Shown here: in pieces, positions 5,169 to 12,921 of the stretch
Position numbering within the stretch: the stretch's first letter is position 1
How the letters are laid out: the number at the start of each line of letters is the position of its first letter
Assembly (NCBI GenBank): GCA_001442985.1
Contig: LDYB01000012.1
Span: 1-64,000 of the forward strand
Length of the DNA stretch: 64,000 nt
Origin: Armatimonadetes bacterium DC
GTDB taxonomy: Bacteria > Armatimonadota > Fimbriimonadia > Fimbriimonadales > GBS-DC
Reading direction: 5' to 3'
Made by a program: the position numbers and the translations under genes
Notes under the pieces: generated by a model
Seen by the model: only the letters and a program-made list of their open reading frames with translations
The model's database searches: none
Told to the model about the DNA's origin: nothing

Positions 5169-5209
5169 GGAACCGAACGGGGAGCTTTGAGGCTACCCCG
5201 TTCGGTTCC
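5169..5209. terminator. Strong hairpin between convergent genes
   Basis: A 14-bp perfect stem (GGAACCGAACGGGG at 5169-5182 with its complement at 5196-5209) with a short inner AGC/GCT pair follows the lipoprotein gene. It has no clean U tract, but it lies between two convergent genes and overlaps the 3' end of the leftward gene, so it probably ends transcription in both directions. Confidence 0.75.
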
Positions 5210-5570
5210 GTTCCTCCACAGACAGCTCTTTTCCTGCCAGCCAGCGCGCCAGCTCCGCCTGCCAGTTCAAAGGGCTAATGAAAAATAACTCCACCCCGTG
5301 CCGACGCAGTTGCACGATTTCGTTCCATTCGCGCCACGCCGCGATGGCGTCCATCTCCTGAAGCCTGCCCCAGCGGAACAGTTTAATCCCCCATTCGGGG
5401 GGCATGCCAGCGTCCAGCACATCGAAATGAAAGCCCCGATAGGTGGCGCCCAGAATGTGGGGCACATGGTGCGCGTTCAGGAATTCTGAAATCTCGTGCA
5501 GGAGCGTTTCGGGCGCTTCAGCGCGCGTGTCGCGTATCACGGTTTCGCGAACGCGCAGTTTTCGTTTCAA
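5193..5570 (-). CDS. Hypothetical protein whose 5' end runs into a CRISPR repeat
   Basis: An open frame of 125 codons has normal protein composition (for example HEISEFLNAHHVPHILGAT and VELFFISPLNWQAELARW), but I recognise no family. The longest start is a TTG inside the repeat at 5564-5593, using the ATTGAAAC handle. The next plausible start is GTG at 5540 (MIRDTRAEAP...). No promoter or Shine-Dalgarno sequence is visible upstream because that position is CRISPR repeat. The gene is therefore either truncated by the array or read from the CRISPR leader through the two repeats. About 29 bp of its 5' end (5535-5563) are nearly repeated in the spacer 5594-5629. Confidence 0.55.
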   Translation of the reverse strand: MKRKLRVRETVIRDTRAEAPETLLHEISEFLNAHHVPHILGATYRGFHFDVLDAGMPPEWGIKLFRWGRLQEMDAIAAWREWNEIVQLRRHGVELFFISPLNWQAELARWLAGKELSVEERNRTG

Positions 5571-5659
5571 TCCCTCACAGGTAGGCTACAAACGCCCCGC
5601 ATTATCACTTTCGCGAACGCGCAGTTTTCGTTTCAATCCCTCACAAGTAGGCTACAAAC
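5564..5659 (-). CRISPR. Second, two-repeat CRISPR locus
   Basis: There are two copies of the same 30-bp repeat as in the array at 1-1072 (5564-5593 and 5630-5659) around one 36-bp spacer. The leader-side copy has one substitution (CACAAGTAGG instead of CACAGGTAGG). A leader homologous to that of the main array follows at 5660. The last 21 bp of the spacer are identical to the 21 bp just left of the first repeat, and another TATCAC matches after a 2-nt gap. The unit of flank plus repeat is therefore nearly duplicated in tandem. Confidence 0.9.
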
Positions 5660-5784
5660 CAACCCGCCCTTTGTGGGTCGGTCCCGAAAATGGGTTCAAA
5701 ACGGTTCCGACTATCGAGATTCGAGCGTTGCCCGTTGGCGATTATATAATACCCCATCGGTGTGGGTGCAGTCAAGCTTTGGCG
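5660..5784 (-). promoter_or_regulatory. CRISPR leader 2, diverged copy of leader 1
   Basis: About 87 percent identical by hand count to 1073-1197, beginning at the same base after the repeat. The promoter is kept: TTGACT at 5770-5775, an 18-bp spacer, and TATTAT at 5746-5751 (minus strand). The hairpin CGAGC-GTT-GCCCG is present with one mismatch. The -35 box overlaps the stop codon of the gene at 5772-6017. Confidence 0.85.
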
Positions 5785-6017
5785 ACCGTGTATGGCGCGT
5801 AGAGCGCCACCTGATTGGCATTTGAACGCAGCTGCTGTATCAGAGGCTGGGCTACACTGGAACTGAGAAGCGACTGCCAGTCTGGGGGATGGTCAGGAAG
5901 CCGACTCACGGCGCGCTCAATACGGCTCTCCAGCACGGTCAGCGTGTCGCGACGCTCCTGCGCCAGGCACTCCAGATAGTAGTCAATCAGAGCCGTTAGC
6001 ACCCCAACCTCAGACAT
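5772..6017 (-). CDS. Hypothetical 81-residue protein
   Basis: A small, probably cytosolic helical protein starting MSEVGVLTALIDYYLECL, with no signal peptide or known motif. I do not recognise the family. The ATG at 6017 is favoured because a GGTACAAT -10 box (6026-6031) lies 8 nt before it, matching the leaderless pattern seen elsewhere in the window. A longer open frame reaches 6071. Its stop codon overlaps the -35 box of CRISPR leader 2, so its transcription runs straight into that leader. Confidence 0.55.
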   Translation of the reverse strand: MSEVGVLTALIDYYLECLAQERRDTLTVLESRIERAVSRLPDHPPDWQSLLSSSVAQPLIQQLRSNANQVALYAPYTVAKA

Positions 6018-6213: not shown

Positions 6214-7119
6214 ATGAGAGGGTATGGCAGAGGCTTTACCTTGATTGAGCTGTTGGTCGTCATCGCGATTATCGCCATTCTGGCGGCGATTCTGTTCCCG
6301 GTCTTCGCGCAGGCGCGTGAGAAAGCGCGCCAGACAAGCTGCACGAGTAATGCCAAGCAGTGGGGACTCGCCTTCATGCAATACATCAACGATTATGACG
6401 AGACCTTCCCCCTGAGCTTTGGGCTGCAAACTCCCGGTGCGCCTGCCAATATCTGGCAGTTCGGTCATCTGGTACCCCCCGACTGGTCTCGCTCGCAAGG
6501 AGCCCAGACAGGGCACTTCCGGGGCGTATCCTCGCTGGTCCACTGGGCGAACACCGTGTATCCCTACATTAAAAATCACGGCTTGTACGGCTGTCCCTCG
6601 GGTCCTGAGATTCGCTTCGGTCCGCTGGACTCCGCGGGCGATTACAACAACCCGCTCAAGCCGCCTGCAGGGGTCAGCTACACGATGAACGGGCTTCTGC
6701 ATGGCTACGCGATGGCGGGCGTTGCGCGTCCGTCGCAACTGCCGCTGGTGTGGGAAGGGCGCGGCAAGGCGAAGTCGCTGGGCGTGATTGTGTCGAACCC
6801 GGTTCTTCGGTGCGACCCCAACGACCCGCGTCCGTGCCGCTACTTCAGCTGCACCTACGGCAATCCGGGCAACGCCTATCCGATCAGCGCGATGTTCGCG
6901 CTCTCGGGCACAATGTGGATTCACAACCAGGGCGCGCTGTTCGTGATGGCGGATGGGCACGCCAAATGGCGCCGACTGGGCGCTCAGCTCGCACCCGCCA
7001 ACACCGACTGGCGCGTAGACCCCTACACGGGCTACGACTCCAACGGCTTCCCGGGCTACTTCTGGTGGGATGGCTGCAACGCCTGGCTCTTCCGACCTGA
7101 CTACGAGTTCAATATCTGA
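6214..7119 (+). CDS. Prepilin-type N-terminal cleavage/methylation protein, DUF1559-like
   Basis: The 301-residue protein has a type IV prepilin signal: [18 protein letters not shown], with cleavage after the Gly before Phe (about residue 8) and a single hydrophobic helix. It continues [16 protein letters not shown], a form I associate with Armatimonadota. Near the C-terminus [10 protein letters not shown] fits the H-X9-DG type of pseudopilin-like proteins. These are exported, processed by a prepilin peptidase and inserted in the inner membrane; their roles are mostly unknown. A GAGGAGGCG Shine-Dalgarno stretch lies near 6199. The N-terminal DNA is almost identical to that of the gene at 12037. 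Confidence 0.88.
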
Positions 7120-12036: not shown

Positions 12037-12921
12037 ATGAAGCGACGCGGCTTTACGCTGATTGAGCTGTTGGTCGTCATTGCGATTATCGCCATTCTGG
12101 CGGCGATTCTGTTCCCGGTCTTCGCACAGGCGCGTGAGAAGGCACGCCAGACCTTCTGCGTTAATAACACGAAGCAGGTAACGCTGGGCATGCTCCAGTA
12201 TCTCCAGGACTATGACGAGAGCTTTCCGTTCAGCATCTACGCGACCTTCCAGGGACCGAATAACGCTCTCTGTGCCTACACCGTGTACCACGCCATCTAC
12301 CCCTACCTCAAAAACGCGGATTTGGCTGGGTGTCCTTCGGACCGCGAGGCGTGGGATGTGCGTACCGCGTTTCTACCGCTGCAGCTGTGCCCGGATAATA
12401 CAACCTCCCCGTTCAAGACCACTGCCTACATCGCGAACTGGGAGATTGTGGAGCGGGGCAGCCTGCCCACCATCCAGAACTTCCCCTGGCCCGGCTTCCC
12501 CTACAGTGTGAAACTGGCAATGATCGATGATGTCGTCAAGACCACCACGCTTTACGATGGCGTGTTGGGCGATCATATGGGAAGCAATACAGGATTGGGT
12601 AGCTACGCTCAGGGGCGCCACAACGGTGTCGCGTCAGTGGGGTATGTGGATGGGCACGCCGGTAACGCCAAAACACGCCTTATTCAGGGCGGCACAGTGC
12701 GCGTGCGGGAGCAAGCGAGTAAAACCCGCCCGCTCTATGCGGTGGAGCAGCCCAACAGCCCCTTCCGAACAACGGGCAACTTCATCTACTACGGCATGAG
12801 CGGCGTGGTCAGCCAGTTCCCAACAGGGCACCCGCGCGCAGGGCAGCCGTGCCACTATGCGCCCATCCAGCCCAATCAGGGCTACACCGGGCAGCCCAAC
12901 CACTGCCGCCATCCGAACTGA
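12037..12921 (+). CDS. Prepilin-type N-terminal cleavage/methylation protein
   Basis: The 294-residue protein has the prepilin signal [18 protein letters not shown], then [13 protein letters not shown], and a divergent C-terminal part with [10 protein letters not shown], fitting the H-X9-DG type. It is predicted to be an exported, membrane-inserted pseudopilin-like protein of unknown role. The second ATG (12037) was chosen over 12031 because GAGGAGGT ends at 12030 and gives a usual 7-nt spacing. The first 100 bp of coding DNA are about 94 percent identical to those of the gene at 6214, whereas the remainder has diverged. Confidence 0.88.

Follow-up and report, generated by a model that had tools for sequence, protein, structure and literature searches.

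A CRISPR array fragment between the two ends of a broken helicase gene in Armatimonadetes bacterium DC: a possible scar of self-targeting

Results

Structure of the small CRISPR locus

We analyzed a small CRISPR locus in a 64,000-nucleotide stretch of the Armatimonadetes bacterium DC genome (contig LDYB01000012.1, positions 1 to 64,000 of the forward strand; hereafter, the window). The locus comprised the following features, all on the minus strand:

5193..5542, minus strand: C-terminal fragment of a superfamily-1 helicase (AAA_11/AAA_12), with its stop codon at 5193-5195, recognized by a match to an 871-aa relative
5543..5563, minus strand: truncated second spacer copy of 21 nt, joined to the helicase fragment; the same sequence as 5609-5629, at the same offset from the repeat
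5564..5593, minus strand: leader-distal repeat, of consensus sequence
5594..5629, minus strand: spacer of 36 nt, whose plus strand encodes PRIITFANAQF, a helicase motif; the best of 145 spacers against the helicase
5630..5659, minus strand: leader-proximal repeat, with one substitution at 5646
5660..5784, minus strand: truncated CRISPR leader of 125 bp with a sigma-70-like promoter (TTGACT-18-TATTAT, 5775..5746), recognized by alignment with seven other leaders
5785..6017, minus strand: N-terminal fragment of the helicase, with an ATG at 6017 and a frame that then stops in the leader; recognized by BLASTP to two relatives

Two repeats, a spacer of the commonest length in the genome (36 nt) and a 125-bp leader at one end identified the locus as a CRISPR array. 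An intact array would carry a full-length leader, and here the leader likeness ended at 125 bp; the small locus is a fragment of an array. In total the fragment spanned 242 bp (5543-5784) and consisted of the leader, a repeat, the spacer, a second repeat and 21 nt of a second spacer copy.

The sequence at 5543-5563 was exactly identical to the last 21 nt of the spacer, as had been pointed out in a previous reading of the window made from its letters and open reading frames (ORFs) (the sequence-only reading). At up to three mismatches this 21-mer occurred at only these two sites in the 2.85-Mb genome, which excludes chance. The reported near-duplication of flank and repeat was also recovered, as a 51-nt direct repeat with 98% identity whose single difference lies in the leader-proximal repeat. 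The additional TATCAC match after a 2-nt gap was present, and its rarity depended on the test: a 6-nt match positioned within an offset of 3 nt was found in 0.065% of random 18-mers from the window, and a local alignment with the same score in 5.9%, which makes it weaker evidence. The most fitting reading of the flank is a second copy of the spacer that breaks off after 21 nt, since these nucleotides belong to the spacer's helicase motif and adjoin the repeat with identical register. A tandem spacer duplication at the end of contig C1 favors this reading. Contigs ended at duplicated spacers in two cases, with the copies adjacent on C1 (end of L063) and distant on C2 (end of L066), both uncertain as contig ends.

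The split helicase gene

The ORF at 5193-5570 had no match in a Pfam search. It encodes the C-terminal ~117 residues of a superfamily-1 helicase: in a search of the genome with the full-length 871-aa relative, it matched residues 759-869 (43%, E 8e-27). A separate alignment was gapless up to the array boundary. In two family-level relatives, the same sequence was the terminal part of 883-aa and 899-aa open frames. The sequence-only reading had taken the flank for the 5′ end of a gene, which is wrong, as the ORF has its TTG start within the repeat and is a piece of a longer gene. Its suggestion that this 5′ end was an old spacer came close, in that 5543-5563 most probably represents the opening 21 nt, in crRNA sense, of a second spacer copy, joined to part of a gene.

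On the other side of the array and on the same strand, the N-terminal piece (5785-6017) was identical to the N-termini of two relatives at 31/77 and 34/77 residues (BLASTP, E 3e-15 and 1e-18), and in the search with the full-length relative it covered residues 4-88, running over a stop into the leader. The same search gave one further match of 42 residues at E 0.055, and apart from it no other piece of the helicase was found genome-wide at E up to 10. The AAA_12 domain was absent from the whole genome in a search that was positive in nine of 14 control genomes. The missing part amounted to ~680 codons, roughly 80 to 759 (about 2 kb), and the 242 bp of array sequence stood in its place. The helicase copy of this genome is a broken gene, of which both fragments are still open frames. 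We regard it as almost certain that the gene was split around the array fragment and lost its middle. The sequence-only reading had overlooked that the array is flanked by both ends of a single helicase gene and that its spacer codes for a portion of such a gene.

The comparison with relatives, which that reading had proposed as a check, was made at family distance. Matches were obtained in five of 41 genomes, the own genome included, and in the same five among 113. The helicase domains were found in the full-length relatives, whereas the copy in this genome retained only the two ends; for the relative L003, of which a 619-aa part was tested, AAA_11 was detected at E 1.3e-19 and AAA_12 at E 1.8e-17. 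Loci 100% and 75% identical to this 619-aa part were present in two Fimbriimonadales MAG records.

Leader, orientation and other arrays

The sequence on the right of the small locus could be aligned with seven other leaders in the genome, at identities of 103-112 of 125 columns; the value of 103 belonged to C9, whose contig starts inside the leader. The genome thus contains at least eight leader copies. The leader likeness on the right and the minus-strand promoter indicated that the array is read leftwards and that the crRNA sense is the minus strand; a similar sigma-70-like promoter was found at the large array at 1-1072. In the small locus the leader likeness stopped abruptly at 5784, followed by helicase coding sequence, whereas the other seven leaders were alike to ~330 bp.

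The leader of the small locus differed at 12 of 118 columns that were invariant among the other seven. By contrast, a single position differed between its two repeats, and the two spacer copies were identical over 21 nt. The difference between leader (14/125) and repeats (1/60) gave a Fisher p of 0.04, where 14 is a rounding of the pairwise counts. Given the near-identical repeats and spacer copies and the two helicase fragments that are still open, the insertion looks recent and the donor leader already divergent. A donor leader of such a divergent type was not seen in the assembly; either it lies outside the assembly, or the ages of leader and repeats disagree.

At their leader-distal ends, five of the seven arrays with an assembled end started right after a shared hairpin. 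The C13 array started in other sequence, and the small locus in the helicase. With this common hairpin before the leader-distal repeat in five arrays, it seems that the leader, the array and the trailer spread together as a unit. The hairpin, CGCCCCTCCCTCGCGCGAGGAAGGGGCG and similar, stood directly before the leader-distal repeat in L059, L060, L063, L064 and L065 (contigs C17, C20, C1 and C18). On C13 (L062 4374-4403 and 5072-5101, reverse-strand coordinates), the same hairpin preceded a lone degenerate repeat ~670 bp from the array, whose first repeat was also degenerate.

The spacer and its helicase motif

Alignment of the spacer with the helicases of relatives first pointed to the motif site, where the PRIITFANAQF encoded on the plus strand of the spacer corresponds to PQIITFANARF and PQVISFANARF. 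Against L068 the spacer scored 48, with the next best of 145 spacers at 36, and against L069 it scored 43, with the next best at 37. Among 2000 shuffles and 3000 random 36-mers from the window, none scored as high as 48; the best reached 40. The motif occupied residues 595-605 of the L068 frame, inside the part that is missing here. Six of the eight codon differences from L068 and three of the seven from L069 were synonymous.

At the DNA level the match was weak, at 24/35 positions for each relative's helicase, and against L068 this value was equaled by three of 300 random 35-mers. The putative match to the host gene is made at the peptide level via relatives, the host's own sequence at this site being gone. 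The motif also recurred in other superfamily-1 helicases: a copy on a Leptolinea plasmid scored 43, the same as one of the relatives, so that the source of the spacer could be another helicase, and four other phage or plasmid stretches tested for the motif scored 21-34. The spacer very probably derives from a helicase of this superfamily-1 type, and its derivation from this very gene is likely, though with less assurance. No weight was given to the CCG that both relatives carry on the PAM side of the motif, as it follows from conserved glycine codons. Among the matches listed for 150 spacers and end pieces against 153 kb of the genome's own sequence (blastn-short), there were no other self-targets.

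CRISPR machinery

The genome encodes interference machinery of types III-A and III-D. Type III-A effector genes with Csx1 were located on the contig of the small locus, outside the window; the type III-D set was on a different contig. The type III-A genes (csm1, csm4, csm5 and csx1) spanned L085 5464-12578, and the type III-D genes (cas10, csx10 and several csm3-like genes) L084 1657-9415. Cas1 was not found in the 95%-complete assembly, despite ~150 spacers. Type I machinery was rejected, as Cas1 was not found and the Cas3-core matches were below the cut-off; the best of these, L071, looks like RecG from its sequence.

The ORFs next to nine array places numbered 90. For 33 of them (those other than the window's 52 and five more), no Cas effector was among the matches listed, which included two CARF models and one typeIV_DinG at E 5e-6; the Pfam list covered 25 of 37 families.

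Type III interference requires a guide complementary to a transcript. The guide from this spacer is complementary to the helicase mRNA.

Discussion

Whereas the structure of the locus is well supported, its mechanism is what we infer from that structure. We lean, without much confidence, towards self-targeting as the cause of the helicase loss, with a repair event that captured a leader-end fragment of an array. Some array would have gained the helicase spacer at its leader end, and type III complexes with this guide would have attacked the transcribed helicase gene. Codons ~80-759, including the target, were lost, presumably through this attack. The gap would then have been filled by a copy of the leader-end array fragment that is now seen with its edges at the locus. 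The fragment may have entered within the second spacer copy, possibly by short homology such as CGCGAAA, and left within the leader. CGCGAAA occurs in the spacer and may also have been native to the gene; it is a putative microhomology, the gene sequence at the join having been lost. The 21-nt stub could have arisen in two ways: either the donor array had already duplicated the spacer, or copying slipped from one repeat to the other.

This self-targeting course is favored by the helicase ends, which flank the fragment on the same strand while the middle was found nowhere else; by the position of the motif in the missing part, with many of the codon differences synonymous; and by the usual spacer length and the presence of both sets of type III effector genes. 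The putative target has been removed, since neither the helicase middle nor AAA_12 was found in the genome. Capture of an array fragment is favored by the leader, cut at 125 bp here and not in the seven others, and by the leader-distal start in the helicase as against the shared hairpin of five in seven arrays. The self-targeting course is weakened by the DNA-level match, which a few random sequences equaled, and by the motif in other helicases; by comparison helicases of the family level rather than the same genus; and by a leader that diverged more than the repeats, together with the missing Cas1. Because the spacer in the insert runs opposite to the gene, repair was not simply guided by homology between spacer and target. 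A simple model of homologous recombination between the two was rejected, as the orientation of the spacer is opposite to that of the strand-invasion product (worked by hand). The degrees of confidence expressed here for the splitting of the gene, the two statements on the spacer's origin and the self-targeting course are judgements and were not computed.

Acquisition in place would also explain why the spacer matches the gene around it and has the usual length. A leader-repeat fragment would have landed in the helicase by chance and taken a spacer from the surrounding gene, the middle being lost later. We consider this unlikely, as it accounts neither for the 21-nt stub in register with the repeats, for which a second spacer copy is required, nor for the absence of exactly the matched part, and Cas1 was not found. 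Slightly less probable still is a foreign plasmid or phage helicase of superfamily 1 as the source of the spacer, with the array fragment hitting the host helicase by coincidence or weak similarity. The motif is common to distant helicases, which were present in 94 plasmid and two phage records, and includes PRIITFSNEMFY in the Leptolinea plasmid, scoring 43. However, two overlapping parts of the spacer had no exact match in viral contigs, and phages and plasmids gave only weak spacer matches, none covering 80% of the spacer; it would also be improbable, in a 2.85-Mb genome, for the fragment to have hit a gene of this type by coincidence and for the matched segment to be missing from it. A viral source was rejected on these matches and on the lack of a close helicase in the viral contigs.

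An assembly artefact, in which helicase ends and array pieces were joined via repeats, is suggested by the 26 contigs of the genome, several of which end in arrays; we consider it very improbable, as the leader of the fragment has its own differences from all others, which marks a separate locus and not a mix, and the helicase pieces occur nowhere else in the genome. The option least likely of all comes from the sequence-only reading, according to which the array duplicated its own flank and the spacer copied the start of the gene. The exact 21-bp identity in register with the repeats agrees with it, but the other 15 nt of the spacer depart from the flank and continue the helicase motif on the plus strand, and the ORF is not a gene start; a tandem duplication of the flank was rejected on the same 15 nt. 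Repeat/tag discrimination guards against the targeting of sites beside repeat sequence, and the protection that the sequence-only reading had attributed to the adjacent repeat is sound in principle, but the flank match that it concerned is not the source of the spacer.

Returning to self-targeting, the passages on this subject in published work describe comparable events. Type III-A self-targeting in Staphylococcus aureus gave large target deletions in >87% of transformants (PMC5687920), and type I-F self-targeting in Pectobacterium left a 7-nt sequence of homology at a deletion junction, for which alternative end joining was proposed (PMC3630108); a review gives the same escape routes (PMC6990116). 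In the cases described in PMC3630108 and PMC5687920, a spacer had a match in a chromosomal gene, and the target was lost with its surroundings; here the putative target of the spacer is likewise gone together with the sequence around it. Unlike the plain deletions, spacer losses or cas mutations described there, the gap is occupied by a copy of an array's leader end, which places a mini-array at the site of the putative target. The 21-nt stub resembles a second spacer copy cut short, as in spacer duplication or array decay, but here array and helicase fragment meet at the cut, and the leader is truncated as well. Off-target spacer integration is a route to new CRISPR loci, and like it, the event produced a new small array at a non-CRISPR site. 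Whereas in off-target integration the target sequence turns into a repeat, a real leader and genuine repeats like those of existing arrays are present here. A keyword search of the literature retrieved no report of an array inserted at its own target or of a gene that an array had split; as evidence of absence this is weak.

The usual basis for recognizing a natural scar of CRISPR autoimmunity is a spacer together with a mutated target. Here the spacer, both fragments of the destroyed gene and the array fragment lie together within 0.8 kb, so that the order of events could be tested in a small number of related strains. Capture of the fragment during repair, if it took place, would hint at how arrays reach new places in a genome, which is poorly understood. 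As a more speculative and rather doubtful extension, arrays might place copies of themselves into the chromosomal sites that they target, with the break caused by a self-targeting guide being patched by the leader end of the array. Such a patch would destroy the target, end the autoimmunity and found a new array, and would provide a homing-like route of array multiplication in a genome with this many leader copies.

To the right of the locus, two genes with prepilin-like N-termini, at 6232-6417 and 12049-12234, shared 79% identity over 186 bp.
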